Source: Crocinitomicaceae bacterium | GTDB lineage: Bacteria > Bacteroidota > Bacteroidia > Flavobacteriales_D > Crocinitomicaceae | Assembly: GCA_003247185.1 (NCBI GenBank) | Contig: QKAV01000065.1 | Location: 1-32,820, forward strand | DNA length: 32,820 nt | Reading direction: 5' to 3' | Shown: positions 3,250 through 31,886 of the stretch, piece after piece | Layout: each line of letters starts with the position of its first letter | Position numbering within the stretch: the first letter of the stretch is position 1 | The notes under the pieces: generated by a model | What the model was told of the DNA's origin: nothing | The model's input: only the letters and a program-made list of their open reading frames with translations | The model's database searches: none | Program-made: the position numbers and the translations under genes

Positions 3250-4512
3250 TTAATTCTCATCAAGGCAGATCTGATCAAACAACCCCGCAAGCGCATTCCA
3301 GCTCATGAAATTTTCACCACAGACCCCTCGTCCACTTTCAGGGGAATAGTATTCGTGAAACATTCCGTTGGTTTTCAAGTCAGACGCTAGGAGAGCAACA
3401 ATATTTTTCGCCAATTCATTAGCTTTGGAAGTATATCCGCGTTGTTTCAAAGTATCCCAGACAATATAATTGGCGACAATCCAGATCGGCCCCAGCCAAT
3501 TGCTTGGGTTGCCGCGAGATACCTCGGGCGCATACATTGACTCATCCTTGGATAGAGAACGAACTCCGAAGTCACTCCAAAGGCGATCTTCAACCAGATT
3601 CTCCTTGACAAACGCATCAAATTGTTCTTCTGTGCCGATGCCAGCCCAAAATGGCAGGATACAACTCCATGAAAGGATTTTCAATTTCAGGCAATTCCAG
3701 AAAGTATCCAGCTTGAAGTTCAGTGAGCCCCAGAGCCGATGTTGTGAAATATTGGTTTTGCATTGCACATCAATAGAGAAGAATGATTTTTCACGATTGT
3801 CCCAGCAATACTTTTGTAATGAGTCCGCAATTCTATTTGCTTTTTCGTGATATTCCTTTGCGTAATCTGTACGTCCGCAGAACTCTGATAGTTCTGCTGC
3901 GGCTTGATAATCCCTGTAGAGAAAAATATTCAGAAAGACGGTCGCACAGGATTTTTCTGGGCGTCCCCAAGCCGCCGGGTCGTCATCTACGCCTAGCCCC
4001 CAATCTTTAGCCCAGAACATCAATCCTGTTTCAGAATGTAGGTAACGTTTTTCATAACATTGATGAAACGATCGCAATCGGTAGATGTTTTCATTTAAAT
4101 CCTCGAATTTCAGCAGGGAGTGTTTTAAAAGCAATAATCCCATTTGAGCGATAAATGGTTTTGCCATATTGTTGTCAGATGATATCAAGCAATCAAATGG
4201 GTCAGAGTCATCTGGTTGAATAAGAATCGGCAAAGCACCGTCGGATCCTTGGTGATCCAGAAAATTGAAAAAAGTTCCTCGGGCGTATGGAGCCAGCTTC
4301 TTAATGGCTTCACTGTCGCCCTGCTGTTCTGAGATATTGAAAATAGCAAGCAGTGTCCAATATGAATCCCAATCCCATAGGGTTTGAGCATAGGGGCCAC
4401 CGGGAGAGACGTATGGATGCTTCAAACAACCGCACGGTTCTTTCATCGTGTCGGGAAATGTATTTGTTATAAAATCAATAACTGTTGTTTTTTGTTCGTC
4501 GAAGGTGCTCAT
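3250..4512 (-). CDS. GH63/GH37-like (alpha/alpha)6-barrel glycosidase (MGH1-like)
   Basis: Probable cytoplasmic glycoside hydrolase of the trehalase/GH63/mannosylglycerate-hydrolase-like superfamily. Seen: the hallmark GGPYAQTLWDWDSYWTLLA near residues 34-52; an acidic loop GLGVDDDPAAWGRPEK near 172-188 where the family general acid Asp is usually found; RGNPSNWLGPIWIVANY near 335; and EYYSPESGRGVCGENFMSWNAL close to the C-terminus, including the Glu expected for the general base. There is no signal peptide. At 420 residues it is a single-domain member. AAAGGA lies eight bases before the ATG. The upstream ADP-ribosylglycohydrolase gene stops 17 bases away, so it is in the operon. Superfamily is confident; linkage and sugar specificity cannot be read from the sequence. 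Confidence 0.85.
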   Translation of the reverse strand: MSTFDEQKTTVIDFITNTFPDTMKEPCGCLKHPYVSPGGPYAQTLWDWDSYWTLLAIFNISEQQGDSEAIKKLAPYARGTFFNFLDHQGSDGALPILIQPDDSDPFDCLISSDNNMAKPFIAQMGLLLLKHSLLKFEDLNENIYRLRSFHQCYEKRYLHSETGLMFWAKDWGLGVDDDPAAWGRPEKSCATVFLNIFLYRDYQAAAELSEFCGRTDYAKEYHEKANRIADSLQKYCWDNREKSFFSIDVQCKTNISQHRLWGSLNFKLDTFWNCLKLKILSWSCILPFWAGIGTEEQFDAFVKENLVEDRLWSDFGVRSLSKDESMYAPEVSRGNPSNWLGPIWIVANYIVWDTLKQRGYTSKANELAKNIVALLASDLKTNGMFHEYYSPESGRGVCGENFMSWNALAGLFDQICLDEN

Positions 4513-4529: not shown

Positions 4530-6041
4530 TTAGGAAATTCTGAAATCAAATCCGTCAAGATGATCGTTATGAAGATTACCAAACATCAGGCAAGCCTTCA
4601 TCGGTGCATGGCAACAAAACAGTTCCCAATGCATCAGATGAGTTTTACCTGCTGTAAGTGGCAGTCTAAACGCCGCACCACCTTCAGCACGATGAAAAGA
4701 TGGAAGCATCTTCTGTCGTGAATGATGATTCATCAACCGCTGGTCATCCAGCCAAAGCCGTTGTCCAACATCCGCTGTTGCCGATAGTACAATTTCATCA
4801 GGCTTGACGTTCTGGTTATTCACCGTCAGGAAAGAATACAAATGCAAAGTATTATAGCCATCAGCGTATTCTGATAGATCCATAAACAGGGTGTCGAATG
4901 AAACTAGATTCTCTTTCAGTTCTTCCGGGCACTTCCCGTGTTTTCGAAGATATGTTTCGACTTCTGCAAGATTGCACTTCGTATCGTCAACGATCAGCCA
5001 TTGCGAGTAATCTGGAGACGGCAGATCTTCAGTCGGACAGTAAGGAATATAGGCCGGATATTCAGATGTCTGTAATTTTGGAGCAAGTTCATCATGCAGT
5101 TGAATTGTTTGCTCAACGAGTTCATCCAACGTTAGCGGCACGCCAGGAATCGCTGTAACGAACGGGCTTAGGCAGAGCTCGTTTTTCACCATTCCAAGCC
5201 ACTTTTGTGGAAATACTTCCATCCCCTTGGCAATCCCTATAAAAGCGCCGCAGCTGGCTGCCGTACAGTCGGTATCACGGCCAAAAGAAATAGTCATCAA
5301 CGTTGTCTTGAGAAAATCTCCATTGCCCCGCAGTAGCGCATGCACAATGAATGCCATATTCATAACACAGTCGGTGAAATTAGAATTACGCTGCTCGGTG
5401 AGAAGCAAGAAATCACGAGCTTCCGTATCGCTAACTCCTGCATCATACTGTTCAAAGACCTTTTCCAGCGTCCGGTAAAGACGACTTGAGCTATCGGTTT
5501 TTATCCAGGCAAATCGCAGGGCTGCTTCAATATCAGAATGGACACACGCATGCGCCTCTGCCATTGCCATAAAGATTTCTCCACGCACACCATCGCCCCA
5601 GTGATCGACTTCTGCGTCCTGTTGTGCAAAATATGCCGCTGCATCAGGACGTTCAGGAAACAACAACGCCCATATTTCCGAACGTATAGTTGCTCCCATG
5701 CCATCCGCGAAGAAGTTGTTTTTCCAGCCGCTGGCTGGCGGCATGATCCCGTGCGCCATATTATGCAGTGCAAGACTATATTCGTCACAGCCATGCTGGA
5801 TTTTATTCAGCCAGGTATCTGCAAGTTTCTCACACGTAAGTTCAACGCCATGCGTTTTCAACGCATCCATCCAAACCAATTGAAGCTCCAGATCATCGTT
5901 GGGGACATCCTGTAAGTTGATCTGATCCTCTGTCAGGTTAACAGGGAACGGTACGCCTTCAAATGGCATTCCAATCGTACCGGCCAATGATTTCCCAAAC
6001 CAGCAGCCGCGAATTTTGTCCTGATAAAAACTTTTGTCCAT
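4530..6041 (-). CDS. ADP-ribosylglycohydrolase-family protein with extra C-terminal domain
   Basis: Member of the ADP-ribosylglycohydrolase (DraG/ARH) fold family. Seen: RGCWFGKSLAGTIGMPFEG at residues 11-29; NDDLELQLVWMDAL near 48, the counterpart of the family's metal-binding acidic motif; NNFFADGMGATIRSEIW near 107; and SFGRDTDCTAASCGAFIG near 253, carrying the DTD metal ligands. The catalytic-like domain ends about residue 330. A further 170 residues, probably beta-rich (KPDEIVLSATADVGQRLWLDD), are extra to the classical enzyme. The start shares one base with the symporter stop (TAATG) and has GAGGA six bases upstream. In this operon a role on an N- or O-glycosidic small molecule or glycan is as plausible as removing ADP-ribose from protein. 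Family confident, reaction not. Confidence 0.85.
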   Translation of the reverse strand: MDKSFYQDKIRGCWFGKSLAGTIGMPFEGVPFPVNLTEDQINLQDVPNDDLELQLVWMDALKTHGVELTCEKLADTWLNKIQHGCDEYSLALHNMAHGIMPPASGWKNNFFADGMGATIRSEIWALLFPERPDAAAYFAQQDAEVDHWGDGVRGEIFMAMAEAHACVHSDIEAALRFAWIKTDSSSRLYRTLEKVFEQYDAGVSDTEARDFLLLTEQRNSNFTDCVMNMAFIVHALLRGNGDFLKTTLMTISFGRDTDCTAASCGAFIGIAKGMEVFPQKWLGMVKNELCLSPFVTAIPGVPLTLDELVEQTIQLHDELAPKLQTSEYPAYIPYCPTEDLPSPDYSQWLIVDDTKCNLAEVETYLRKHGKCPEELKENLVSFDTLFMDLSEYADGYNTLHLYSFLTVNNQNVKPDEIVLSATADVGQRLWLDDQRLMNHHSRQKMLPSFHRAEGGAAFRLPLTAGKTHLMHWELFCCHAPMKACLMFGNLHNDHLDGFDFRIS

Positions 6042-8359
6042 TACTTTTCCTCGTCACTTATATGTAGTTTTTCATCCACTTGATGGAACTTTGCCTCGTC
6101 AGCAAGTGATACGCCATCTTCAACCATTCCATTATCAAGAGGATCGACCACCCGGTTCTGCAGATTGCGAAACAGCTGGATAATCCCGAACACTCCCCCG
6201 ATACTAAACCAAATACTGGTGATTGCGACCGCTACAGCAGGGACTATGATTTGTGTCAGAAGGAAGTATTTTCCCCACCATTCAAGCGGCCATGGTGATA
6301 CAGTATTCCAGACTACCATCATCAGGAAACAGATACCGAAATGATACACGTAGGTATAGATCACCAGACTGTATGATATAACTTTGTCGCCACGTGTATG
6401 CTCGTCAGTAATTCCGGCTATCAGATGGATGATATTGCTCCAACGCCAGTCTATTTTGGCTTTCACAGTTCCATCGATATTGTATTCTCCGCGGTGAAGC
6501 ATACGGTCAAGATTGAATGCATGGTGGCGTGTGAAGTGCGAAACAACAACATACACAATTAGAGTGAAAATCATCGTAAACAGATATGATTCAAAGCTGT
6601 TGATCGGAAATTTCTCCGGGTTCATTTCCCAGACAATAAGCGGATTCATTGGTTTTGAGATCATGGTAAGTAATGACCCGATTGGTTCAACCCAATTTCG
6701 ATCTTCCAGATAAGGATAGATCATGTTGGCCCAGTTTCGTTGCATAAAGATCGCCAAGAGCGAAAGAAACATACCTGACAGCAAAGAAGCCCAGGCACCC
6801 TGCTTGCTACCAAATTTTCCGTACAGGCCAAAGATCATCATCGGCCCGCAACCGCCAAGCCAGGTGGAGAGAACAATAGTGACAAAAAGATTTATGTAAT
6901 CCAATTGCGCCATGTAGCAGGAGCAGAACAAAAACAATAACCCAACAAAGATTGCAACAATTCGGAACATCCAGATATGCAGCCTCGGAGAAGGCGCTTT
7001 TTTAAAGAATGGAAGAATCGTATCCTGCACAATCGTCAGTACCGAACTAAATATAAACGAGTCATCAGTGGAAATCATCGCCAAGATAGCAAGCAGACAA
7101 AATAGCCCCATCATACCCGGCCCCATCAGTTTTCGCACCGTCACAGACATCATCGTCTGATGATAAATAGTCCGAAACTGTTGCGTCAGATAGGCGCTAT
7201 CTTCCAGACCCGCCTCTTCGAATGTTGTACGGGCAGTATCAATATAAACTGTATCCAGATTACTCTTATCCGACAGTGGAGCATCAACCCCTATCCTATG
7301 TTTCTGCTCTGGAATCGCTTCAATATTTGTAATCAGTTTCTTCTGAAGGTCTTTATCTTTTACAATATCACAAGCGACGCGAGCAGATAATTCTGTCCGA
7401 ACCTGCTTTGCCTCAGATGAAAAATGTTCGTGATTGAGAAAGACCAAGACTGCAATGGAAATAATCAGGTAAAGCAAAGGAGAGAAAAATCCCCTCCAGC
7501 GTCCCATTATGGAAGCCATTTTCTGTTCATGCGGGCTGGTTGCTGCTCCCTGCGCACCACCACCAATCCAGGAAGCTGCATGCAAGAAAGTTGTTGCTGC
7601 GCCTAAAACCAAAGTAAGCAGATTAAAGTCCCGTAATCGCAAGACATCATAAGGATTCAGGAAACTTTCTCCCTCAGAGCGATCCATTAATATCGGGGCA
7701 ATCTCTGTGCTCCAGTTAAATTTCCAGAGAAGATAACCGGAGAAAAATACAATCAGCGGCAGGCAGACCATCCCCTGAATCGCATCGGTGATGACAATGC
7801 TCATTGTCCCACCGCAACAAATGATAAAGATTGCTATGGATACACAGATCGTCATGAGCAAGACAAAGACCGAGACCTGATGTCCAAGTACCGTGATGTA
7901 TTGCGGGAATCCGAGAAAGTAAAGAAAAAAACGCCCGGCAATTGCCGGCATAATCGCATGCGCCATCAGTTCTGCCGTAGTACGCAAAGTCGAGGCGAAA
8001 ACACGCAGAGGCTTACTGCCATATCGCATTTCAAGAAATTGCCCAAATGACTGTGCTTTTGTTTCACGAAAGCGGTATATGCAATAGCCAAACAGAGCCA
8101 ATGTCAGGGTGATCGGAATCATTATCGCCCCCCAAATGCCAACGGCATAGCCGGTTTTGTATTGCTGTTCACAATACATCACGATAGAGAGAATGGAAAT
8201 TCCGTTTGCCATGTCTCCAGCCAGCAGTACATATCTCCCGCAAAGACGTCCCGCTGACAGAAAGTCGACTACTCCTTTAACGTATTTGGTTGTGTATAGC
8301 GCGAGTCCAATGACAAATATCATCGGAATGATTACGATTAGCCAGTCAATTAATGTCAT
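6041..8359 (-). CDS. Sodium/solute symporter (SSS family), likely sugar importer
   Basis: Inner-membrane Na+-coupled transporter of the SSS (SLC5-like) family. Seen: an N-terminal helix (IDWLIVIIPMIFVIGLALYTT), the polar VVDFLSAGRLCGRYVLLAGDMANGISI segment typical of TM1-2, and about fourteen to fifteen hydrophobic helices over 772 residues. It is longer than usual members (about 500-600): residues of about 310-405 form a hydrophilic insertion rich in charged residues between two helices, and there is a C-terminal tail with DNGMVEDGVSLADEAK. It overlaps the HAD gene by four bases (ATGA) and the next gene by one, so the three are translationally coupled. It is the only transporter in the window and so the likely uptake route for the oligosaccharide or monosaccharide processed by the neighbours. 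Confidence 0.92.
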   Translation of the reverse strand: MTLIDWLIVIIPMIFVIGLALYTTKYVKGVVDFLSAGRLCGRYVLLAGDMANGISILSIVMYCEQQYKTGYAVGIWGAIMIPITLTLALFGYCIYRFRETKAQSFGQFLEMRYGSKPLRVFASTLRTTAELMAHAIMPAIAGRFFLYFLGFPQYITVLGHQVSVFVLLMTICVSIAIFIICCGGTMSIVITDAIQGMVCLPLIVFFSGYLLWKFNWSTEIAPILMDRSEGESFLNPYDVLRLRDFNLLTLVLGAATTFLHAASWIGGGAQGAATSPHEQKMASIMGRWRGFFSPLLYLIISIAVLVFLNHEHFSSEAKQVRTELSARVACDIVKDKDLQKKLITNIEAIPEQKHRIGVDAPLSDKSNLDTVYIDTARTTFEEAGLEDSAYLTQQFRTIYHQTMMSVTVRKLMGPGMMGLFCLLAILAMISTDDSFIFSSVLTIVQDTILPFFKKAPSPRLHIWMFRIVAIFVGLLFLFCSCYMAQLDYINLFVTIVLSTWLGGCGPMMIFGLYGKFGSKQGAWASLLSGMFLSLLAIFMQRNWANMIYPYLEDRNWVEPIGSLLTMISKPMNPLIVWEMNPEKFPINSFESYLFTMIFTLIVYVVVSHFTRHHAFNLDRMLHRGEYNIDGTVKAKIDWRWSNIIHLIAGITDEHTRGDKVISYSLVIYTYVYHFGICFLMMVVWNTVSPWPLEWWGKYFLLTQIIVPAVAVAITSIWFSIGGVFGIIQLFRNLQNRVVDPLDNGMVEDGVSLADEAKFHQVDEKLHISDEEK

Positions 8360-9096
8360 ATTGTTTTCCCCGTGTTTTCCACCCCGTGCTGGATGGTTTC
8401 TCGTTCTAAAAGAATATGATGTCCAATGCCACAGGCACGGGGCAAATCTCGGTCTTCTTTCGGATTATCCCCGATCACGCATATTTCCGAAGGGGCTACT
8501 GGAATGTTTGCCAGCACGCGCAACCAGACGTCTATTACACATTTACAGCCACGCAAAATGTTTGTCCCAAAAATGCGCTTGAAATATGGTGTAGAAAAAT
8601 CATCATCTGCCAAACCAGCGGCCTGTAATTTGAGTACACACCCCATGTAAGGATTGTTGCTCATAATAAAAAGCCTCTTACCAGCCAGGTGTAGTGTTTT
8701 GACCAACTCCACACCATCTTCACATGGGATAAGGTTTTCCATATGCCAGTCGTACATACGGCGAAATGCCTCGTCAGCAGGAAGATGAAATTCAGCAAGA
8801 AAATCTGTATAATCCCAATAAACAACCTTTTCTGTCAGTTCAAGAATTGCCGACTCTGCGTCGGACTGTTTCCAGCCTCGCTCTAGCATCATGTCTCGAA
8901 TGACTGGAAATAGAAAATTACCGTGAAGAAGTTTATCGTGCGTCACTGATGATTTGTACGAGGTAAGAGTGCCATCAATGTCCACAAGAAAGTTATTGCA
9001 ATCTGGTATATCAAAACTGATCTCGTTCATAAGTGTTGTTTCTTTCTTGTCAATAAGTGAATCAGGCAATTGCACTTGCTTTTTCGTAAAGATCAT
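8356..9096 (-). CDS. HAD-superfamily phosphatase
   Basis: Cytoplasmic phosphohydrolase, first gene of the minus operon. Seen: motif I FLVDIDGTLT with the nucleophile Asp at about 39 and general acid Asp at about 41; motif II LFIMSNN; a Lys in RGCKCVIDVW; and motif IV CVIGDNPKEDRDLPRACG. The cap region between motifs I and II is helical and of moderate size. The ATG at 9096 has AAGAG four bases upstream and lies about 35 bases from the inferred transcription start, so it is preferred; a second in-frame ATG at 9030 (MNEISFDIP) would remove a 22-residue lead that looks poorly folded and remains possible. In this context it probably dephosphorylates a sugar phosphate or recycles a phosphorylated intermediate; the substrate is not visible. 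Confidence 0.88.
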   Translation of the reverse strand: MIFTKKQVQLPDSLIDKKETTLMNEISFDIPDCNNFLVDIDGTLTSYKSSVTHDKLLHGNFLFPVIRDMMLERGWKQSDAESAILELTEKVVYWDYTDFLAEFHLPADEAFRRMYDWHMENLIPCEDGVELVKTLHLAGKRLFIMSNNPYMGCVLKLQAAGLADDDFSTPYFKRIFGTNILRGCKCVIDVWLRVLANIPVAPSEICVIGDNPKEDRDLPRACGIGHHILLERETIQHGVENTGKTI

Positions 9097-9136
9097 TATC
9101 TCTTGTTTGTCATTAGAGAAATAAATTTATATTTAA

Positions 9137-9200
9137 TATATAACACATCATTCTTAAATAACAATAGATGTAATAGACAAAAAGATATATAATATAGACA
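9137..9200 (-). promoter_or_regulatory. Promoter P1 with three-part operator, drives the minus operon
   Basis: Read on the minus strand, the element contains three GTCTATWAT-like sites: GTCTATATT starting at 9199, GTCTATTAC at 9178 and ATCTATTGT at 9169. The start-to-start distances are 21 and 9 bases. The last site runs into a -35 box TTGTTA (9164-9159), followed by a 16-base spacer and a -10 box TATATA (9142-9137). The block TGTGTTATA just before and over the -10 is shared with the two plus-strand promoters. The expected transcript start is about 35 bases before the HAD gene. AraC-family activators typically bind direct repeats next to or over the -35 box, and the regulator gene lies directly beside it. 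Confidence 0.7.
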
Positions 9201-9479: not shown

Positions 9480-10355
9480 ATGAAGAAATTAAATTTTAAA
9501 ACTTATTTTGACGAATCGTTTTTTCCTATATCGGTAACAGAGATGACGATGAAAAATAATGATGGGCAAACTGTAACATCTATTCACTCCCATGGTTTTT
9601 CGGAAATAGTTTTTCTGGCCGATGGCACTCTTTCACATCATTGTAATGGCATTACGGAAAAACTCAAAAAAGGGAGCTTCCTTTTGATTCATCCTGAAAT
9701 GGAGCACTATTACTCAGGTATTACTCCGACGACTCTTTGTTATAACATCTTATATGATTCATCAATTCCGATACCAATTCTAATACAAAGGAAGTCTTTT
9801 TTTCTGCATCAGCTTTATCCAGAAAAAGAAGATATTCAGGCTGGTTACAGTGGCTTTTCCGGAAGGGTTCCTCCAAAACAAATTGAGCTAATTCTGGCTC
9901 TGATTCAGAATATACAACAAGAAAACCGAAGGCATCGATCCGGATTCCAGATAATGATCATCTCCTACTTTACCGCAATTGCAACCCTACTGTCGCGTTA
10001 TGCTAAAGAAGAGAAGGTCATTGACAGTAATTGGAGTCTGAGTAAAGTAATCGGAATGATGAGGGGAAGTTGTCATGACAGCACGGTTACAATTGCAGAT
10101 TTTGCTAAAGCCTCAGGGATGTGTCAGCGAACATTACTGCGGAAATTTAAAGCATCATTTGGGATTGGTCCCATGCAATATCTCCAGAAGCTCCGTGTCG
10201 AACTCGCCGTAAAGCTCTTGGAGAACATGGCATTCTCTCTGGATGAAGTTGCAATCAAGAGTGGTTTTTACAATTACAGCCATATGTGGAGAGGCTTTCG
10301 CAAACATTTGAACTGCACGCCAGCTGAAGTCCGATCGCATAAAAAGGAAAATTAA
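9480..10355 (+). CDS. AraC-family transcriptional regulator (cupin sensor plus double HTH)
   Basis: Cytoplasmic DNA-binding regulator, probably the local sugar-responsive activator. Seen: an N-terminal cupin-like region (SIHSHGFSEIVFLADGTLSHH ... GSFLLIHPEMEHYY, residues of about 33-87), a helical linker, and a C-terminal AraC DNA-binding domain at about 190-287 with both helix-turn-helix units (VTIADFAKASGMCQRTLLRKFK, and FSLDEVAIKSGFYNYSHMWRGFRKHLNCTPAEVR). The length of 291 is typical. The ATG has only a weak GGA upstream, and an operator-like element covers that site. The stop codon directly abuts the start of the GH78 gene, so the two are co-transcribed. Three promoters around it share a repeated operator that it probably recognises; this is inferred. 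Confidence 0.93.
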   Translation: MKKLNFKTYFDESFFPISVTEMTMKNNDGQTVTSIHSHGFSEIVFLADGTLSHHCNGITEKLKKGSFLLIHPEMEHYYSGITPTTLCYNILYDSSIPIPILIQRKSFFLHQLYPEKEDIQAGYSGFSGRVPPKQIELILALIQNIQQENRRHRSGFQIMIISYFTAIATLLSRYAKEEKVIDSNWSLSKVIGMMRGSCHDSTVTIADFAKASGMCQRTLLRKFKASFGIGPMQYLQKLRVELAVKLLENMAFSLDEVAIKSGFYNYSHMWRGFRKHLNCTPAEVRSHKKEN

Positions 10356-12740
10356 ATGAACGATTTTAAGGCAGCATCTTGGATCTGGACAAACCTTACG
10401 GATTCAGGGAAAGATCTATATCGGCTTTTTCGGAAAGAATTCATGTGGGTACAAGATTGCAGCCCTGTCCTGATTAAAATTTCTGCTAATTCAACATACG
10501 CTCTATTCGTTAATGGTCGACGCTGCCAAATTCAACAGCTTGCCGATTATCCTGATTCTATTACCTTCTCAAGTAGCGATATTACTCAATATCTGCATCC
10601 TGGAAAAAATCTCATCGCCGTCGAAATTCATTATATCGGGACAAATTTTTCAACAATTCAGGCAGGAACGCCGTTTTTACGCGCAGTTATATCTGCTGAA
10701 TCCAGCGTTTACGAGAAAACTGATACCTCTTGGCGATGGGCGGATAGCAGGGCTTATCACTCCGGTTTATCCTGCAAAGTTACCGAGCAGCTTGGCTATG
10801 TTTTTTGTTATGATGCTCAAAGGGAAATTGCTTGGATTGATCCGGAATTCGATGACTCCGGGTGGAGAAATGCATTTGAATACGACGCTTCCATTTTCTC
10901 TAACGTCGCAGTGGCTGAACGGGATGTGCCTCAATTGATACAAACAACAATCCCAAGCTGTGCTATTTCTCAAGTAGGTCTTTTGCGTAGAGTTACTGAG
11001 GAGGCTACATTTGCCTTAAGCCTCAGTCATGATTATCTTTCACCTCGCATTGAGGAAGAAATACTGCTTAATAAAAAGGCGATTCCACTGGAGGAATGTT
11101 TATCTACTCCTAAACGTGTTCTTTTACCCGAAAACAAAGAACCATACCGATTCCGCCCGCTTTCTGACTTTCCGGAAGCAAACGGTTTTTACATCATAAC
11201 GGATCTTGGGAGGGAGATGGTTGGCTATCTTTATTTCAGGCTTTCTGCTCCAGAGGGAACTGTAATCGATATTGCTCATGGAGAGCACCTTACAGATGGG
11301 CGGGTAAGGGCTGCTATTGGGGGGCGTAATTTTGCGGACCGCTATATCTGCAGTGAAGGGCGAAATGAATTCCTTTTTGTCCACCGACGAATTGGATGCA
11401 GGTATTTGGAGCTGCATTTCACTGGTTGTGATGCAGGCGAAATAGTACTTGAATATGTGGGGGTACTCCCTTTAGAGTTGCCGCTACCCGATGCAGCCAG
11501 ATTCCATACCGAAGACCGTTTGCTAGCGAAGATAAATGAGGTTTCTATTGACACACTAAAGCTATGTATGCACGAGCACTATGAAGATTGTCCCTGGCGG
11601 GAGCAAGCTCTTTATGCCTACGACGCAAGAAATCAAATGCTTTATGGCTACTATGTCTGGGGGAATTATGATTTTGCAGCATCCTCTCTGAATCTTCTCG
11701 GTAAATCATTTGATGGTGACAGGTATCTTGCCTTGACCGCTCCTGGTTTACCTGAAATAACGATTCCAATTTTCACCATGGTTTGGATAACAGCTCTGTG
11801 GGAGTATCAACTATTTAGTGGCTCGTCGACATTATTTGAACGCTGGCAAGAGCAGATAGATCACATTCTGGATCGAGCGTTGGTAGAGAAAGATTTGACT
11901 GTCGGTGGATTGTATCATCCTGGAGCAAGTGACTATATTTGGAATTTCTGCGAATGGAACGGTGAACTTCAAGGATATAGTTATTTGCGGGCACCATACA
12001 ATATCTATTTTCATGAGGCGTTGGCTTCAGCGGCCAAACTTCATGAGGTGCACGGAAATAAGAAACGTTCAACATTTCTTCTCCAAAAAGCAGAGCAGTT
12101 GAAAAATGTCATAGATCAGCTTTTTTGGGATCAAGATGCTTCTATCTATAAAGCGGATTATCCGGGAAGTAAAAAGGAATATTACGAACACATCCAAGTG
12201 ATAATGCTTTCCGAAGGAATAGTGCCGGAAGAAAAGAAAGAGCCTGTTTTGCGTGCGTTGCAGCAAAAGGAGCTATGCCCAGTCAGCCTAAGTGCACTTT
12301 TCTATCAAATCAATGGTTTGATGGAATGTGGTGTCGATGGCAGAAGATTCCTAACCGGATATATGAATAGCACTTTTGAGCCAATTGTTTTCTCAGGAGC
12401 AACATCTCTTTGGGAGACATGTAATGGAGAGGCAGACTTTGATGGTGCAGCAAGTCTCTGCCATGCCTGGAGCAGCGCGATGCCATATTTTTGTGGAAGC
12501 CGAATTTTAGGTGTACGTCCGCTAGAGCCTGGATTCCTGACATTCGAAATCAAACCTTATTACGCAGGATTGACGCATGCAGAGGGAGATGTTCCGACTC
12601 CATATGGTAAAATTCATATTTCCTGGAAATTCAATGACGGAAAGCTGTCCGTTCAAATCCGTCACCCGAAATGCTTAAATGCCATTGTTAATTCGTGGCC
12701 TGAGTGTCCGATTGATACAGTTGATTTGGAATTATACTAA
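10356..12740 (+). CDS. Alpha-L-rhamnosidase-like glycoside hydrolase (GH78)
   Basis: Predicted cytoplasmic inverting alpha-L-rhamnosidase of family GH78, or a close relative. Seen: N-terminal beta-sandwich regions (about 1-370) including SANSTYALFVNGRRC, and then the (alpha/alpha)6 catalytic barrel. The signature EDCPWREQALYAYDARNQ gives Asp411, Glu416 and Asp423, matching the acidic residues of characterised GH78 enzymes. A later SLWETCNGEADFDGAASLCHAW carries the second conserved Glu and the His of the family, and LGVRPLEPGFLTFEIKPYY starts the C-terminal beta domain. There is no signal peptide, so it acts on imported oligosaccharides. The ATG follows the regulator's TAA with no gap; AAGGA inside the regulator's end provides ribosome binding. 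Family confident; rhamnose specificity is probable. Confidence 0.88.
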   Translation: MNDFKAASWIWTNLTDSGKDLYRLFRKEFMWVQDCSPVLIKISANSTYALFVNGRRCQIQQLADYPDSITFSSSDITQYLHPGKNLIAVEIHYIGTNFSTIQAGTPFLRAVISAESSVYEKTDTSWRWADSRAYHSGLSCKVTEQLGYVFCYDAQREIAWIDPEFDDSGWRNAFEYDASIFSNVAVAERDVPQLIQTTIPSCAISQVGLLRRVTEEATFALSLSHDYLSPRIEEEILLNKKAIPLEECLSTPKRVLLPENKEPYRFRPLSDFPEANGFYIITDLGREMVGYLYFRLSAPEGTVIDIAHGEHLTDGRVRAAIGGRNFADRYICSEGRNEFLFVHRRIGCRYLELHFTGCDAGEIVLEYVGVLPLELPLPDAARFHTEDRLLAKINEVSIDTLKLCMHEHYEDCPWREQALYAYDARNQMLYGYYVWGNYDFAASSLNLLGKSFDGDRYLALTAPGLPEITIPIFTMVWITALWEYQLFSGSSTLFERWQEQIDHILDRALVEKDLTVGGLYHPGASDYIWNFCEWNGELQGYSYLRAPYNIYFHEALASAAKLHEVHGNKKRSTFLLQKAEQLKNVIDQLFWDQDASIYKADYPGSKKEYYEHIQVIMLSEGIVPEEKKEPVLRALQQKELCPVSLSALFYQINGLMECGVDGRRFLTGYMNSTFEPIVFSGATSLWETCNGEADFDGAASLCHAWSSAMPYFCGSRILGVRPLEPGFLTFEIKPYYAGLTHAEGDVPTPYGKIHISWKFNDGKLSVQIRHPKCLNAIVNSWPECPIDTVDLELY

Positions 12741-13078: not shown

Positions 13079-13142
13079 GTCCATAATGTGCACAAAACAG
13101 TCTTTTATGTCTATTGTTGAGCATAAGCTTGTGTGTTATACT
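13079..13142 (+). promoter_or_regulatory. Promoter P2 with three-part operator, drives the 13188-start operon
   Basis: Three direct repeats are seen: GTCCATAAT at 13079, GTCTTTTAT at 13100 and GTCTATTGT at 13109, with start distances of 21 and 9 bases. The third overlaps a -35 box TTGTTG (13114-13119), followed by a 17-base spacer and a -10 box TATACT (13137-13142). Transcription would start about 35-40 bases before the epimerase ATG. The whole block from 13094 to 13150 matches 24023-24079 at all but about five positions. Confidence 0.75.
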
Positions 13143-13187: not shown

Positions 13188-14084
13188 ATGGAGCATTATA
13201 ATCTGTCATACCCAATAAATACAGTAAGTTGGGATGGCAAGGTGGTCACCCGATGCTCCGACGAATGCTTCTTGCCAACCTGTAGAACCTTGAAGCAACT
13301 CGGAGTTAACGAATTGATGGTTACAGGCTATGTTACTGTCGAGGAAGCTGACTTTGATATGATGGAGGAAACCAAGCGTCTCGGGGGGCTACTTGATTCT
13401 ATGGGGATGCGTCCGGCACAGCATCACGGATTGTCGGCGATGTATGCGCCGCAAGGTGAAAGTCAGGATCGTGTTATAGAGAAGTTAATTCGCTCAATCC
13501 ATTATACTGCGAATATGAATGCGCCAGTGTTGGTGATACATCCTGGACAGGTAGATCTTCACTTGTCTACAGTGGAGGAATATACCGAATATTTTTCTGA
13601 GCAGATTCGCAAATATGGAAGGCAGGAAATCCTAAAAACCTGCGCCGCCAATCTCGATACTGCCGGAGAAATTGCCGGAAAGCTGGGGGTAAAAATCGCC
13701 CTTGAAAATGTAGAGCTTTTTGCGGCGGATATCACATTGCTACGTGATCTGCTTGATGAGGTCAAATCACCGAATATTGGATTCTGCTTTGATTCAGGTC
13801 ACGCGCATTATAAGTCCGCTTCAGTTTTAAATTGTCTTGATATTCTTCAGGATCGCTTGCTCACTACTCATTTGCATGACAATCGCAGTGTTTTTGACGA
13901 GCATATGCCTCCGGGATTCGGAACTATTCCATGGATTGACATAATTCAAGGTTTGTGGAAGGCTGGCTATGATAATACGATTAATTTTGAGTCGGGAGGC
14001 TGGCCAGGGCTGGATAAGGAAACTGGATTCGAATTGGCTATTCAATTTTGGCGAGCGTGCGAATTATTAGCAAAGAAAAATTAG
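13188..14084 (+). CDS. Sugar-phosphate isomerase/epimerase-like TIM-barrel protein
   Basis: Xylose-isomerase-like TIM-barrel protein (AP-endonuclease-2 superfamily), cytoplasmic, 298 residues. Putative metal and catalytic residues are visible in order: Glu in KIALENVEL, Asp/His in IGFCFDSGHAH, His in THLHDNR and Glu in INFESGGW, so it looks active. AGGAG lies eight bases before the ATG. It is the first gene behind promoter P2 and is followed after 22 bases by the large glycosidase-like gene. Relatives include ketose 3-epimerases, inosose/2-keto-sugar enzymes and many proteins of unknown reaction; here conversion of a released sugar or keto-sugar is likely. It is only distantly similar to the second member at 25510. 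Confidence 0.88.
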   Translation: MEHYNLSYPINTVSWDGKVVTRCSDECFLPTCRTLKQLGVNELMVTGYVTVEEADFDMMEETKRLGGLLDSMGMRPAQHHGLSAMYAPQGESQDRVIEKLIRSIHYTANMNAPVLVIHPGQVDLHLSTVEEYTEYFSEQIRKYGRQEILKTCAANLDTAGEIAGKLGVKIALENVELFAADITLLRDLLDEVKSPNIGFCFDSGHAHYKSASVLNCLDILQDRLLTTHLHDNRSVFDEHMPPGFGTIPWIDIIQGLWKAGYDNTINFESGGWPGLDKETGFELAIQFWRACELLAKKN

Positions 14085-16257: not shown

Positions 16258-16322
16258 GAGCTTGATGCAAGATAAAGTACTAGTGGATTGTTATTCTGTA
16301 CAATACGATGTGGGAGAGTGAG

Positions 16323-17063
16323 ATGAAGCAACGTTGTTCAATAACCGGGAAGCGCTCATTACAGCAAAAATTTACTTTAGTAGAAATGCTTGTCGTGATT
16401 GCAATCATATCCATATTGTCGGCACTTCTGCTTCCTGCCCTGAATAAGGCAAAACAGGCCGCACATTCTGTGAGTTGTCTAAACAACACTAAAAATATAA
16501 TGTCTGGACTTATGTTCTATGCCGATTCATATCGATATTTTCCGGCTCGCATGAATGCGACAACCGGAATTCGGTGGTATCAGCGTGTATATGAGAGTAT
16601 AAGCGGAGACTCTGCCGCAAATCTAGTATTCTACAAAAATTCCGGCTATTTCAATTGTCCTGCCTATCAGTATGAGGCAGCAGGAGCGAATATACATCAA
16701 GGAACCATCGCTTATGGTAAGAGTGATGTTCTTGGCGGATGGTTTGCCACCATTAGGCCAGAGCAAATAAAACGTCCCTCAAAAGTAGCGGCAATCGGAG
16801 ATAGCGATGATGATGGCTTTTGGGGCGCAATAATATCCCATTCTACGTATCTACTTGGCAACAGGCATGAAGAAAGATCTTCTGTTTCATTTGTCGACGG
16901 ACACGCAAAAAGTATTTTAGCCGAGAGTGTAATTGCTCCTGATGTCGTATATGGGCTTATGGATTATTCAAGCGGTGCAACAATTGTCCGTTCAAGTGCA
17001 ACAGCCATTCCATTTGCGGCAGGATATATGCCAATGGAAGTGATACAAATGTGGAATAACTGA
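16323..17063 (+). CDS. Pseudopilin-like secreted protein, Lentisphaerota type
   Basis: Type II secretion/type IV pilin-like protein. After a basic lead comes FTLVEMLVVIAIISILSA, the prepilin cleavage and methylation helix with Glu at +5, then a globular domain of about 190 residues ending in the motif NRHEERSSVSFVDGHAKSI (His, about nine residues, DGH). The residue before the Phe is Lys rather than the usual Gly, which fits my recollection of homologues from this phylum. The ATG at 16323 is preferred to 16308 because GGAG lies six bases upstream; it gives 246 residues. Such proteins are highly multiplied in Lentisphaerota and some planctomycetes. Being inside a sugar operon suggests a cell-surface role in binding or presenting the glycan, which is not shown by the sequence. 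Confidence 0.88.
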   Translation: MKQRCSITGKRSLQQKFTLVEMLVVIAIISILSALLLPALNKAKQAAHSVSCLNNTKNIMSGLMFYADSYRYFPARMNATTGIRWYQRVYESISGDSAANLVFYKNSGYFNCPAYQYEAAGANIHQGTIAYGKSDVLGGWFATIRPEQIKRPSKVAAIGDSDDDGFWGAIISHSTYLLGNRHEERSSVSFVDGHAKSILAESVIAPDVVYGLMDYSSGATIVRSSATAIPFAAGYMPMEVIQMWNN

Positions 17064-17101: not shown

Positions 17102-20100
17102 ATGGGGAATCAGACGAAAATTATTTTTACTGCGATTGTGTTTTTTCTTTGTAATATTTCCAATTTGTTGGCAGCACCGAAGCCTGGGATGCCGATTTTT
17201 ACTGACAACTTTGACACTCCAGCAACATTTGCGGAAAACTGGGTTGCCAATGGTGCCAAATCTTTGAACGGCCAAATGGTAATAAGGGGTGGGACACCGA
17301 ATCTTCGCATAGACCTCCCTCTTGAATTTTATGTGGAATGTGATGTCGCGCTCCGAAATAAAAAGCAACAATTAGGGCACGGCGGAATTATGATTGGTTC
17401 ATACAGGTTTCAAATTCAGTCAAATGGTAAAGCCTTTTTAATTGCAAAAGATATAGGCGGAAAATCCATCGTAAACTACGCCCCAATTTCTGAATATGAG
17501 ATGGGGAGACCTGTTCGTATTTCAATAGCTCGAACCGTAGATAATGATCTCGCAACATATACTTATTTCATCAATGGGAAAACGTATGGTTCATTTCGAC
17601 AAAACCTTCCGGATAAGGGCAAAGACAACAAACTTGTAATCTCCGGTGATGTTGAAAAAATCACAATTGATAATTTTTGCCTCTCATCTGTAAAAAAATC
17701 GGATAATGAATCCCCGAATCTTACTGTCAACAGTTCTTTCGAGGAATTGCAGGATGGGTTTCCTCTTTATGTAACACGCTTTTTCTATACCATGAATTTC
17801 AGTCTTGGCAAGCAATTTGATTATGACCAGTATATCGCATCAGTTAGTGCAGATCAATTTGAAAAGCACAGCGGTAATTACTCATTGAAGCTTGTTGTCA
17901 ATAAATATGCTTTAAGACATGAGATAGGATTTCACAGTACCGGGAAGGTTGAGGGGAAGCCTGGGGTGATGTCGTTGTGGATGAAATCAGACCGTGATGA
18001 TATGAAAGTACAATTTAACTATACTTATGGACAATATTCGCAAGTATTCAACGTTGGAAAAGAATGGAAACGCTATGAAACGGTGATTCCCAAGCTACAG
18101 AAGCCCAACTTATGGCCGGGAGCTTCGTTACTGGTTCGTAGTGACTTCAATAAAGATGGGGGGACGCTTTGGGTTGACGACGTTCAATGCGAAATTCTTG
18201 CAACAGCCCCGACAGAAGAAGACATTAAATCAGGAAAGACCTTTGCTACTCCGTACCGACCTTCAGAGATTGATAAAACAAAATTTGGGCCTGAGCCAAA
18301 AAATGCCCGAGCGCCCTCGTTCGCTGTCCCTGCATTACCGTCTGGAATTAAACCTTCTGTGGATTTGGATGCATGGAAATCGTATGCAACAAAGGTTGAT
18401 GATTTTCATTATACCAATAAGACCCCGAAAAATAAGACAGAAGTTTTTCTGGCATGCGATAAAGATAATTTATATGTCGGTTACCGCAATTTCGGAGATG
18501 AACTGGCGTTCTATAAAAAGGAACCTTCTTTGTTTACTCATGGCGTGGAATTCTTTTTCGCGCCATCCGAAACAGATAAAAAATTCTTGCACTTTGCTGC
18601 AAACGCAACCGGAGATAAGCGTGCTTATGGACTTGGTGAAGATCCCACGTGTGATATTGAGTGGCGTTGTAATGCTGTTGAAAACAAGACCTATGGAAGT
18701 GTGGATTACTTAGTGACTATTCCTATGGGTAATTTCGCGGATATCAACCTATCTGCTAATTGGCTGATTAACTTGTGTCGTAATGATAGTGTAGCCAAAG
18801 AGCATATTGCATTACCGTCAATCCCGCGAGTTATGTATAAGTCGGTTGATACATGGGCTAGAGTTTCATTTCCTGATGAGATTATTCGAGCCAATTCTAT
18901 TGGAGTGGATAAGGTAACGATCGTTGATATTTCCGGAAACAGGCAGCTTGGTCTTGATGTCAAGAATTCTACCGGAATAAAACAGGACATCAAAATCAAA
19001 GCTATAAATTTGACTGAAGGAAAAAAAGTAATCGCCGAAAAGGAAATTGCGGTGCCTGAAGAAGGCAAAGCAGAAGTTCTTTCTCCAATAAACGGTTCAG
19101 CCAAGAAAATCGCAGTTTCTTTTCGAGACTCTGCCGGGAAACTGTTATTTAACCGCAATCTTATACCAGCGGAAGAAAAATCTGTTTCCGTGCTCGGGCG
19201 TCTTTCTTTTTACATGAATGAACCTGAGGCTATTTTTCGTTGTAATGTAAACATACCTAATGCAGAGAAACACCAGGCTTTGCTGACGTGTGCGGGAAAG
19301 CAGGTTAAAATTCCTGCTGCTGAAAAATTCACTATAAATTTTCCTCTTTCAGATGTTAAGCCTGGAACATATGATGCAGAGCTTTCAATTATAGATGGTG
19401 AGCGAAAAGTAGCTCGAACAGCAATACCACTTATTAAGCGAGAGTTTCGTGAAAACGCAACACAAATCAACCATTTTTCTCGTTCTGTTGTTGTTAACGG
19501 TAAACCGCTGTTCATGTTTGCTCCGTTCTTGGGTGATTTCAATCATTCACATATATTCACGGCGGATACTGCAGTAAAAATGTTGGAAATATTTGACCGT
19601 TATGGGTTTAATTCCATGCATTTTCTTCTCGATCCCCAAAACGAAAAAGCCATTACAAGCGCAAACGCATTTCTAAGCACTGCTGATAAAAAGAACCTTT
19701 CTTCTATGATTTGGATAAAAAACCATGATATGAAAAATCCTGACTTTGAAAAAGTTATAACTCGAGTAGGCGGGAAAAATATTATTTCCTATCAGGTTCT
19801 GGATGAGCCAGAGTTGTGTGTTACAGCCGAGTGGACATTGGCTTATTTGCGTAAGCACAGAGGTTTTTTTCCGTACCACCCTATGCATATGAATAACACC
19901 GTACTTGGAATTCCTAATAATTTTGCGAACTTGGAAACCGATATCCTTATGCTTGATGATTATCTCACCAATGGAGAAAAGAGAACTGTTTATTCTGTAA
20001 TCCATATGGCGGATTTAATGTGGGAAATTGGAAAAGAAAAAGGGACACCCTGTTATTTCTTCCTTGTTGATAATAATTGGCCTCTTCATCACCGAGAACC

Positions 20101-20527
20101 ATCCTATGCTGAGCAGATCGCTCAATGTTATGGAGCAATAGCTTCTGGCTGTACAGGAATTTCACTTTTCTTTGGTTGGGCGCAGACTCCGGGAAATTGG
20201 AAGGCTAGTGTTCAGCTTTCCAAAGAAACAACGGTGCTGAATGATGTTCTAACCAGCGAAGAAGAATGTGAAGACGCAACATCTACAGGAGAATCGAAGT
20301 ATCTTAGGTGTCGAACAAAAAAGTACAACGGATATCTTTACCTTGTTACCTGCAATATTGATTCCACACCAGCAAATCAAATCACGTTTACACTACCTTC
20401 AAGCTACGAATATGAAGGCCAAGTAGATGTTATGTTTGAAGACCGCCAATGCGAAATCAAGGAAGGGAAATTTATTGATAATTTTGATAAATGGTCGCGG
20501 CACGTTTATCGTATTAAGATGAAATAA
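17102..20527 (+). CDS. Giant secreted multidomain glycan-binding/putative glycoside hydrolase protein
   Basis: Secreted 1141-residue protein. In order: signal peptide (about 1-24, ending LLAA); a jelly-roll domain (TDNFDTPATFAENW, about 30-200); a CBM4/9-like module from NSSFEELQDGFP to GTLWVDDVQCE (about 212-365); a CBM9/DOMON-like region (EVFLACDKDNLYVGYRNF ... VEFFFAP, about 410-590); an Ig-like stretch (about 610-785); then SRSVVVNGKPLFMF and a TIM-barrel-like region (about 795-1055) with VLDEPELC. Glu902 in DEP resembles the NEP acid/base motif of clan GH-A. A small beta region ends the protein. AAGGA lies seven bases before the ATG. It is fourth in the P2 operon. A full-length paralogue lies at 26500. 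Binding modules confident; catalysis is inferred, and no characterised family was recognised. Confidence 0.88.
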   Translation: MGNQTKIIFTAIVFFLCNISNLLAAPKPGMPIFTDNFDTPATFAENWVANGAKSLNGQMVIRGGTPNLRIDLPLEFYVECDVALRNKKQQLGHGGIMIGSYRFQIQSNGKAFLIAKDIGGKSIVNYAPISEYEMGRPVRISIARTVDNDLATYTYFINGKTYGSFRQNLPDKGKDNKLVISGDVEKITIDNFCLSSVKKSDNESPNLTVNSSFEELQDGFPLYVTRFFYTMNFSLGKQFDYDQYIASVSADQFEKHSGNYSLKLVVNKYALRHEIGFHSTGKVEGKPGVMSLWMKSDRDDMKVQFNYTYGQYSQVFNVGKEWKRYETVIPKLQKPNLWPGASLLVRSDFNKDGGTLWVDDVQCEILATAPTEEDIKSGKTFATPYRPSEIDKTKFGPEPKNARAPSFAVPALPSGIKPSVDLDAWKSYATKVDDFHYTNKTPKNKTEVFLACDKDNLYVGYRNFGDELAFYKKEPSLFTHGVEFFFAPSETDKKFLHFAANATGDKRAYGLGEDPTCDIEWRCNAVENKTYGSVDYLVTIPMGNFADINLSANWLINLCRNDSVAKEHIALPSIPRVMYKSVDTWARVSFPDEIIRANSIGVDKVTIVDISGNRQLGLDVKNSTGIKQDIKIKAINLTEGKKVIAEKEIAVPEEGKAEVLSPINGSAKKIAVSFRDSAGKLLFNRNLIPAEEKSVSVLGRLSFYMNEPEAIFRCNVNIPNAEKHQALLTCAGKQVKIPAAEKFTINFPLSDVKPGTYDAELSIIDGERKVARTAIPLIKREFRENATQINHFSRSVVVNGKPLFMFAPFLGDFNHSHIFTADTAVKMLEIFDRYGFNSMHFLLDPQNEKAITSANAFLSTADKKNLSSMIWIKNHDMKNPDFEKVITRVGGKNIISYQVLDEPELCVTAEWTLAYLRKHRGFFPYHPMHMNNTVLGIPNNFANLETDILMLDDYLTNGEKRTVYSVIHMADLMWEIGKEKGTPCYFFLVDNNWPLHHREPSYAEQIAQCYGAIASGCTGISLFFGWAQTPGNWKASVQLSKETTVLNDVLTSEEECEDATSTGESKYLRCRTKKYNGYLYLVTCNIDSTPANQITFTLPSSYEYEGQVDVMFEDRQCEIKEGKFIDNFDKWSRHVYRIKMK

Positions 20528-24007: not shown

Positions 24008-24071
24008 GTCTATAATTTATATAAAACTGTCTCTTATGTCTATTGTTGAGTATAAGCTCATGTGTTATACT
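24008..24071 (+). promoter_or_regulatory. Promoter P3 with three-part operator, near-copy of P2
   Basis: The same layout as P2 is seen: GTCTATAAT at 24008, GTCTCTTAT at 24029 and GTCTATTGT at 24038 (distances 21 and 9), then -35 TTGTTG (24043-24048), a 17-base spacer and -10 TATACT (24066-24071). Homology to the P2 region extends both upstream (to about 23990) and downstream (TTCTTTCAT and TAATAAC), past what a binding site alone would need, so it arose by duplication. It probably drives the oxidoreductase-epimerase-giant protein operon through a long leader. Confidence 0.72.
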
Positions 24072-24327: not shown

Positions 24328-25452
24328 ATGACCACAAAAAAACAGTTGCCTATCGGTGTTGTAGGCCTTGGTATGGGGCAACATCACGCCTGGGCTTCAC
24401 TTCGGGAACCGTCTGTTAAATTGGCAGCTATTGCTGAGCCGGATGAAAAGAGGTTTAATGAATTCAAATCTCTTACAGCTAAAACGCTAGGAAAAAAAAT
24501 TGCTGAAAAGCTCGATAAGATCCCTCGGTTTGATGATTATAAGACGATGGCTAAATCTGGCGAAGTTGAAGCCATTAGTATTGCTCTTCCAACAGATATG
24601 CATTATGAAGCCACTCGCTTTTGCCTACAACATGGTTTGCATGTTATCTGTGAAAAGCCCCCAACAACTAACGCCGCGCAAATGGTCAAACTCGCTCGCA
24701 TTGTTTACGAAAAGGGGCTTACTTACTCTTTTGTGAGACAGCAGCGTTTCACTCCGAAAATGATGGCTTGCCGCGAAATGGCATTGAAAGGGACATTAGG
24801 GCGTGTTTACCACGCTGAAAGTCACTGGTTACGTTGTCGGGGTATTCCTTTCCGTGGTGGTTGGGGAGTAAATAAAGATACCGGAGGCGGTGTGCTGCTC
24901 GATCTTGGCATACATCAAATTGACGATGCTTGGTTCTGTATGGGAAACCCAGTACCAGAAGCAGTCTTTGGTGGTATGCACTGTGCATTCGACTATCTGG
25001 CAAAAGGCAAAAAGCTATCTCATCCTTACAATGCTGACGATTTATCTGTTGGGATGGTTCGCTTCGCTGATGGTGCGACGCTCAGCCTATCCACGTCCTT
25101 CGCTATGAACCGCGTTCACCCCGAGATGCTGAAGAAAACTATAGTGCCTGGTTCTGATTGGCAGGAATTACATGTACTTGGATCTCATGCAGGGGTTGAT
25201 GTATACCGTGGGAAAATGGTAGCAAACCACCCGAAAGGGGTTTCAATAAAAGAGTTGCCAATGTCCAAAAAAATAGCCAATATGACCTGCGGTTTCGAAG
25301 GGCTTATTGCGGATTTTGCCAAGGCGGCTCTGACAGGAGAAGAGCCACTTAACTCGGCTCGTCAAGCGATACAATTGATGTATATGCTTGAGGCTATTGG
25401 AAAATCAGCTGAGACAGGCAAGGCGGTTCCTGTCAAAATAGTTAATCTTTAG
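24328..25452 (+). CDS. Gfo/Idh/MocA-family NAD(P)-dependent oxidoreductase
   Basis: Cytoplasmic sugar or cyclitol dehydrogenase of the Gfo/Idh/MocA family, 374 residues. Seen: an N-terminal Rossmann motif GVVGLGMGQHH, the ISIALPTDMHYE strand, the family CEKPPTTNAAQM motif (EKP Lys near residue 111) and GGGVLLDLGIHQIDDAW in the C-terminal domain, where the Asp and His belong to the usual catalytic set. AGGAG lies seven bases before the ATG. It is the first gene of the P3 operon, 57 bases before a sugar epimerase/isomerase-like gene. This pairing is common in pathways that oxidise a hydroxyl of a glycoside or sugar acid to a keto intermediate. The exact substrate cannot be told. Confidence 0.93.
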   Translation: MTTKKQLPIGVVGLGMGQHHAWASLREPSVKLAAIAEPDEKRFNEFKSLTAKTLGKKIAEKLDKIPRFDDYKTMAKSGEVEAISIALPTDMHYEATRFCLQHGLHVICEKPPTTNAAQMVKLARIVYEKGLTYSFVRQQRFTPKMMACREMALKGTLGRVYHAESHWLRCRGIPFRGGWGVNKDTGGGVLLDLGIHQIDDAWFCMGNPVPEAVFGGMHCAFDYLAKGKKLSHPYNADDLSVGMVRFADGATLSLSTSFAMNRVHPEMLKKTIVPGSDWQELHVLGSHAGVDVYRGKMVANHPKGVSIKELPMSKKIANMTCGFEGLIADFAKAALTGEEPLNSARQAIQLMYMLEAIGKSAETGKAVPVKIVNL

Positions 25453-26415: not shown

Positions 26416-26499
26416 TATTCCATTGTTTGTTCAGGAAATAGAAGTCAGATCGACTTACCCATGATTACGCAGTTATTATCAAAAATTAGGAGTAATAAT

Positions 26500-31419: not shown

Positions 31420-31554
31420 GGTCAATAAAATTATTGTAGTATTGTTGTGGTTCAAGCAGTCCCGGTACTTCTGTCGTTGAGTGTTGAGAGGTTGGCCTTA
31501 ACCCCGAAGTGATATACTGTTAAGCTTGATTCTTTGGGTTGGGGGAGGACAGGC

Positions 31555-31886
31555 GTGGCAAACAATATCAAGACTAAATGCTGTATGAATCCAGAGTGTA
31601 AGCTTCATGGCAAAGCTAATGAAAGCAACATCCGCACTCACGGTTGGTACAAAACCAAAACACCAAGACGCCGCAGGTACATATGTAGTGCCTCGGCAAG
31701 TCTTTTAGCTCGAATCAAGGATCAGCTTATCATCCTCTCAGAGCGTCACGCGAAAAGATCAATTATGCTTGCGGTACTTCCGTCATTAACTGTAGAATTT
31801 GACCATCATGCAGCGGTTCTCAAGCGATCATCAATATTATCAGAGAACTCAACCACGAACTCCGCTATTGCAACAAGACACAACTG
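31555..31886 (+). pseudogene. 5' half of an IS1-like transposase gene, frameshifted
   Basis: From a GTG at 31555, with GGAGG six bases upstream, the frame encodes a zinc-ribbon start (TKCCMNPECKLHGK ... NIRTHGWYKTKTPRRRRYICSA) typical of IS1-like DDE transposases. Near 31693 one base seems lost: AGTGCCT is followed by CGGCAAG where TGC GGC AAG is expected, after which the coding sense moves to another frame (GKSFSSNQGSAYHPLRASRE). At least one more stop follows, then NIIRELNHELRYCNKTQL up to 31886, where homology on this strand ends. The catalytic part is missing from this strand and lies inverted just to the right. Confidence 0.75.

Follow-up and report, generated by a model that had tools for sequence, protein, structure and literature searches.

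A predicted AraC-family operator built on a 21-base direct repeat at three promoters of a putative sugar-use regulon

The DNA analysed here, referred to below as the window, comprises 32,820 nucleotides (contig QKAV01000065.1) of a genome bin assigned to the Crocinitomicaceae. It encodes an AraC-type regulator (9480-10355, plus strand) with the two features that define this group within the AraC/XylS family: a C-terminal domain with two helix-turn-helix motifs (HTHs; PF12833, HTH_18, at residues 209-286, E 6.4e-19; PF00165, E 5.4e-11) and the cupin-like N-terminal ligand and dimerisation domain of the AraC subgroup (AraC_binding, PF02311, at 33-92, E 1.8e-8). Among the 21 window proteins scanned, it alone matches a DNA-binding Pfam family (E<=0.001). 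An alpha-L-rhamnosidase-like protein (10356-12740, plus; open reading frame and Pfam, as for the other genes) starts directly after the regulator's stop codon and is probably co-transcribed with it. Three further units lie behind the promoters P1, P2 and P3. The P1 unit, on the minus strand, begins with a HAD-type hydrolase (8356-9096; putative start, with a relative in locus L058 that aligns from residue 1) and continues with a sodium:solute symporter family protein (6041-8359), an ADP-ribosylglycohydrolase family protein (4530-6041; 64% relative in locus L059) and a GH63/MGH1-like glycosidase (3250-4512; 61% relative in L059). The first gene behind P2 encodes an AP_endonuc_2 sugar isomerase-like protein, here called Iso1 (13188-14084, plus), which like the hydrolase is also supported by relatives, and P3 is followed, about 255 bases past the -10 element, by its first long gene, which encodes a GFO/IDH/MocA oxidoreductase (24328-25452, plus). 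The neighbouring genes, with rhamnosidase-like, GH43-like, GH63/MGH1-like and esterase-like products, make the side chains of plant polysaccharides a candidate substrate.

Several other genes of the window deserve mention. A pilin-like N-methyl/DUF1559 protein (16308-17063) follows Iso1, and a relative of it follows Iso1 in several Victivallales clusters. Two large paralogs (17102-20527 and 26461-29970) are 50% identical to each other and match no Pfam family at E<=0.001; their relatives occur in Victivallales clusters that bear the regulator. At the right end of the window, two short open reading frames (31534-31887 and 32031-32561), likewise without a Pfam match at that threshold, look transposase-like by eye.

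Each of the three promoters carries three GTCTATWAT-like 9-mers whose starts lie 21 and then 9 bases apart (9199/9178/9169 on the minus strand in P1; 13079/13100/13109 in P2 and 24008/24029/24038 in P3, both on the plus strand). These sites had been picked out in the original prediction, and we recovered all three arrays when the boxes, first read in the sequence, were re-extracted by script. We call them A1, in the distal half-site, and A2 and B2, in the proximal half-site, anticipating the reading given below. In P1 they are GTCTATATT (A1, 9191-9199), GTCTATTAC (A2, 9170-9178) and ATCTATTGT (B2, 9161-9169); in P2, GTCCATAAT (13079-13087), GTCTTTTAT (13100-13108) and GTCTATTGT (13109-13117); and in P3, GTCTATAAT (24008-24016), GTCTCTTAT (24029-24037) and again GTCTATTGT (24038-24046). 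A2 and B2 agree at 6/9, 7/9 and 7/9 positions in P1, P2 and P3, respectively. At the place of a distal B box, B1, the letters agree with A1 at 6/9 positions in every array and with B2 at 6/9, 3/9 and 4/9; A1, A2 and B2 are well kept in the window and B1 is weaker.

The arrays sit at promoter-like positions, with hexamers that are poor. P1 has TTGTTA-18-TATATT (9135-9164, minus), which a consensus promoter scan flags at 9/12, and P2 and P3, which the scan passes over, have TTGTTG-17-TATACT (8/12 by our count), with the -35-like TTGTTG at 13114-13119 and 24043-24048 and the -10-like TATACT at 13137-13142 and 24066-24071, each preceded by TGT (an extended -10 form). The P1, P2 and P3 regions contain 1, 2 and 5 promoter-like matches, against 3.5, 1.9 and 4.3 in shuffled sequence, and hexamer matches alone prove nothing here: the scan is uninformative, and P1 is called a promoter by its position. 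As to the proposed overlap of the last site with the -35 element, B2 by position covers a -35-like TTGTTR in all three promoters (in P1 also in the promoter scan), hexamers that are poor and for which the scan is at chance level. Overlap with a poor -35 element would suit an activator. The common TGTGTTATA proposed to cover the -10 is present in all three promoters, at an offset from the start of the third site that, by eye, is 22 in P1 versus 23 in P2 and P3.

The sites and their spacing exceed chance. A matrix built from P2 and P3 alone scores P1 at 26.0 bits, compared with 9.7 bits for the runner-up on either strand of the window and a top score of 19.5 bits in 300 shuffles preserving local composition; when the spacings were left free, 21/9 was the top triple in the P1 region. 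The genome-wide scan that had been proposed as a check, run with a pattern derived from all three arrays and allowing up to 3 mismatches, returned 3 matches in the bin (2.74 Mb, 76.6% complete), all of them in the window, and 0 for the reversed control, so that arrays scattered at random away from promoters are not a feature of this bin. The same search across 240 genomes of the bin's family gave 5 matches outside its own genome, all with 3 mismatches, against 17 (our count) for the reversed control, and these were set aside.

The three arrays do not carry equal weight. When P2 and P3 are compared in 20-base blocks, 15-18 of 20 positions agree from 0 to +80, while the remaining eleven blocks agree at 3-9/20 apart from one at -60 (13/20). 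One of these promoters seems to have been copied from the other, so P3 adds little independent evidence and that role falls to P1. As had been noted, P1 is otherwise unlike P2 and P3 and lies on the opposite strand: beyond the boxes and the -10 word it shares little with them, its -35/-10 spacer and its flanks differ, and its boxes were found by the matrix made from the other two promoters only.

Relatives of the regulator in the compared Victivallales clusters are 23-46% identical to it, the lowest value coming from a partial sequence. They are divergent from Iso1 relatives in six loci (L054, L057, L058, L059, L060 and L061, sister genomes counted apart). In L055 and L056, Nmeth and Big1 stand beside the regulator relative instead of Iso1; in L062 an Nmeth relative adjoins it on the same strand and no Iso1 match was found; and in L053 none of these cluster genes lies beside it. 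In L057, L058 and L059, HAD comes after Iso1 and Nmeth. In L059, a run of genes on one strand beside the regulator consists of Iso1, Nmeth, Big1, HAD, GHmgh and ADPrGH, the symporter being absent from it. Genes that the window divides between P1 and P2 therefore stand together in L059, which supports a common regulon for the P1 and P2 units, though not the P3 unit, independently of the DNA sites.

To compare operators across these clusters we looked for direct repeats at lags of 6 to 40 (35 lags) within the 75 bases preceding the -10 element, measured against shuffles. Lag 21 was the best lag in 8 of the 12 promoters outside the window (L054, L059, L055, L056, L061, L078, L071 and L072), and in P1 and P2; P3 ranks lags 30 and 18 above 21. 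The exceptions were L058 (best lag 19), L057 (lag 26, then 19), L060 (no clear repeat) and L110, which ranks lag 39 first and has window-like boxes 20 rather than 21 bases apart. Because no regulator relative is in view at L110, the repeat accompanies one in 8 of the 11 tested promoters that have such a gene nearby. Combining 11 representatives, Fisher's method gave p = 9.7e-8 for lag 21 (0.08 for lag 19), and the 8 promoters that remain without the window and L110 gave 1.2e-6, the next lag being 19 at 0.33; these values are generous, because the repeats had caught our attention ahead of the shuffled comparison and we selected the -10 words by eye. Left out of both tests were P3, as a copy of P2, and L056, L058 and L078, from sister genomes of L055, L057 and L061; the smaller test also omits P1, P2 and L110. 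As a control, 9/12 matches at lag 21 occurred in 2 of 60 other TATAAT upstreams from twelve Victivallales loci. L076 was dropped for a mismatched -10 anchor (by eye, a 21-base step separates its TTTGGC boxes), L053 and L062 lay outside the test, as did the Iso1 loci L066, L068, L069, L070, L074 and L075, whose fetched flanks held no regulator match, and L063, L065, L067, L073 and L077 repeat loci already included.

The words that are repeated differ between these promoters: TTGATTGA-like in L054 and L059, GCTGWTTTT-like in L055 and L056, and TTTGGC in L061, L078, L071 and L072. In L055 all four boxes can be made out by eye, with A1, B1, A2 and B2 reading GCTGATTTT, ATAGATGCA, GCTGTTTTT and GTGGATTGC at steps of 9, 21 and 9. 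Since the boxes have changed, a scan for the window's letters in the loci of the relatives was unsuccessful, the best hit (13.8 bits) lying in L059 away from its promoter. Orthologous clusters that keep the regulator and lose the sites would speak against the original prediction, and this was seen in part: the letters are not kept by the relatives, and L057, L058, L060 and L110 depart from the 21-base lag that the other 8 of 12 promoters show.

One genome, G242, does hold a window-like site. Allowing up to 2 mismatches, an A2-B2 pattern gave 48 matches across six genomes, one of them a 2-mismatch site at the end of contig C71 of G242, and its reversed control gave 30; at zero mismatches only the three window sites and one on G242:C129 were found. 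There the A2-B2 pair reads GTCTTTTTT GTCCATTGA, the -10 lies 28 bases from the B2 start as in P2, A1 precedes A2 by 20 and not 21 bases, and the site precedes a fragment of Iso1 that shares 74% identity with the Iso1 of the window. G242 also encodes the L053 regulator; of the seven HTH1 helices compared with the window's, that of L053 comes closest: across 28 pairs of eight regulators, the window and L053 are most similar (75%), followed by L054 and L059 (69%), which share a box word, and then by pairs at 62%. It is an assumption that the L110 site goes with the L053 regulator, since the two are on different contigs of G242; the pair linked on its contig C172 joins a different regulator to TTGATTGA-like boxes. 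Common descent by itself might account for part of this agreement between box and helix, though in overall identity L059 is closer to L060 (44%) than to L054 (40%).

The contig itself (G000:C143) appears to be foreign to its bin. No ortholog of the regulator was found in 240 genomes of the bin's family, of which 104 match it at E<=0.001, with the best other gene at 41 bits, in the HTH region only, compared to 661 bits for the gene itself. In a one-genome-per-species collection, a pattern-based scan that reaches close relatives only recovered three relatives (37-46% identity), all in metagenome-assembled genomes titled Victivallales, and the bin's single match to PF07596 (DUF1559 family) is on the window contig. 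These observations point to a contig of Victivallales type that was probably mis-binned or acquired. A relative at E<=1e-30 is present in 6 of the 137 genomes of G242's order, and the regulator gene has no match in the phage records searched. HTH_18 matches are numerous in three Victivallales genomes of 3.7-6.0 Mb, with 74 in G240, 82 in G262 and at least 150 in G278, the last count coming from 150 of 216 candidates scored.

A common AraC-type regulator acting at like operators is a standard bacterial way to switch several genes together. At araBAD, the proximal AraC half-site overlaps the -35 element; here B2 lies over a -35-like hexamer. The araI1-I2 half-sites in the E. coli K-12 sequence are 21 bases apart, the same direct-repeat arrangement as in the window arrays, and araC is divergent from araB. 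MekR and XylS have different effectors. Each AraC-type monomer uses its two HTHs to contact an A box and, roughly one helical turn away, a B box, and the dimer occupies two half-sites (PMC4514859, PMC5481539), as described for the A and B boxes of XylS (PMC5481539). The half-site strings that PMC4514859 gives are TAGC-N7-TCCATA for AraC, TGCA-N6-GGNTA-N6 for XylS, CACC-N5-CTTCAA-N6 for MekR and AGTGC-N5-AGTAT-N7 for MtlR. By our count on these strings, MekR at PmekA has a period of 21 and an A-to-B step of 9, exactly as in the window; XylS at Pm shares the period of 21 with a step of 10; AraC has a step of 11, against 9 and boxes that are alike in the window; and MtlR has a period of 22 and a step of 10. 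The words read by MekR and XylS are unrelated to those of the window, and XylS responds to benzoates (PMC5481539). The closest visual parallel is MtlR at PmtlE of Pseudomonas fluorescens (AGTGC-N5-AGTAT-N7-AGTGC-N5-AGGAT), where the A and B boxes are alike and give the same look of several direct repeats, with four boxes against three clear ones here, and where the weaker downstream site is described as the regulatory key (PMC4514859).

The spacings of the window fall inside the range of these four layouts, and we therefore read 21 as the step from monomer to monomer and 9 as the step from A box to B box within the proximal half-site. Two half-sites about 21 bases apart, the arrangement expected of an AraC-type dimer operator, were found in all three window arrays and in 8 of the 12 promoters outside. 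We consider it highly probable, from sequence comparison, that the arrays serve the AraC-family protein encoded at 9480 as activator operators and that the P1-P3 units form one sugar-use regulon. That the operator belongs to this protein and is common to the three units, as the original prediction had it, is the best reading of its domains, its divergently placed relatives and the recurrence of lag 21. In this scheme, a regulator dimer (a predicted stoichiometry) would bind two direct-repeat half-sites 21 bases, or two helical turns, apart, and within each half-site the two HTHs of one monomer would read the A box and then the B box about 9 bases on. With B2 lying over a weak -35 element, the proximal monomer would be placed next to RNA polymerase, so that the regulator, when bound to a putative effector, would most likely switch on all three units: HAD-symporter-glycosidase (P1), Iso1 (P2) and oxidoreductase (P3).

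The arrays might instead be the operator of another regulator encoded outside the window. The HTH_18 counts of G240, G262 and G278 show how many candidates such a host could offer, and the bin is 76.6% complete and perhaps not the contig's own, so that further regulators in the actual host would escape notice. We nevertheless regard this as very improbable, given that the 21-base repeat lies beside relatives of the 9480 regulator in 8 of 11 tested promoters, and that window-like boxes at zero mismatches recur, among the six genomes, only in the one encoding the closest HTH1 helix of those compared. It is very unlikely that each 9-mer binds one monomer, making a true three-part operator of equivalent sites. 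The likeness of A2 and B2 does make each array resemble three copies of one word. Yet AraC-type half-sites span 15-17 bases by our count on the XylS, MekR and AraC strings (PMC4514859), and a pair of monomers set at a distance of 9 bases would therefore collide; several relatives keep the 21-base step with A and B words that differ by eye; and MtlR illustrates that A and B boxes can be alike within one half-site (PMC4514859). The three boxes of the proposed three-part operator are real, and fit better as A1, A2 and B2 from a pair of AraC half-sites. That the likeness is merely the copy history of a duplicated promoter cassette, as the roughly 80 bases shared by P2 and P3 (spacer and start region included, and hardly more) might suggest, is scarcely credible, as P1 has hardly anything in common with them beyond the boxes and the -10 word, and the 21-base repeat recurs in other genomes in other letters.

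From sequence alone, a putative regulon can be assigned to an uncharacterised regulator of a little-studied group, and genes that should answer to one signal are predicted; no Victivallales AraC regulon appeared among the titles and abstract openings listed for the literature searched. The cluster also provides a worked case in which relatives of a regulator often retain the layout of the operator although its DNA word changes, a pattern that might assist the decoding of AraC operators in uncultured bacteria. A broader and rather doubtful extension is that the large Victivallales AraC repertoire has diversified by changing the HTH1 helix and A-box word around a 21-base geometry that stayed constant beside the -35 element, with the distal B box dispensable in three-box operators. 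If this were true, the operators of many Victivallales regulators could be read by lag 21 without a known motif. Among other AraC regulators of the three Victivallales genomes (306 HTH_18 matches scored; 19 of 30 fetched loci usable), lag 21 is only weakly ahead, with 6 of 19 upstreams reaching 9/12 in a tie with lag 30, and at 10/12 it is found in 2 upstreams, tied with lag 24. Finally, two G242 promoters (L054:3969-4142 and L110:13656-13744) carry MITE-like inverted repeats with common ends, CTCTAAAAACTG and CAGTTTTTAGAG, between the -10 element and the gene.
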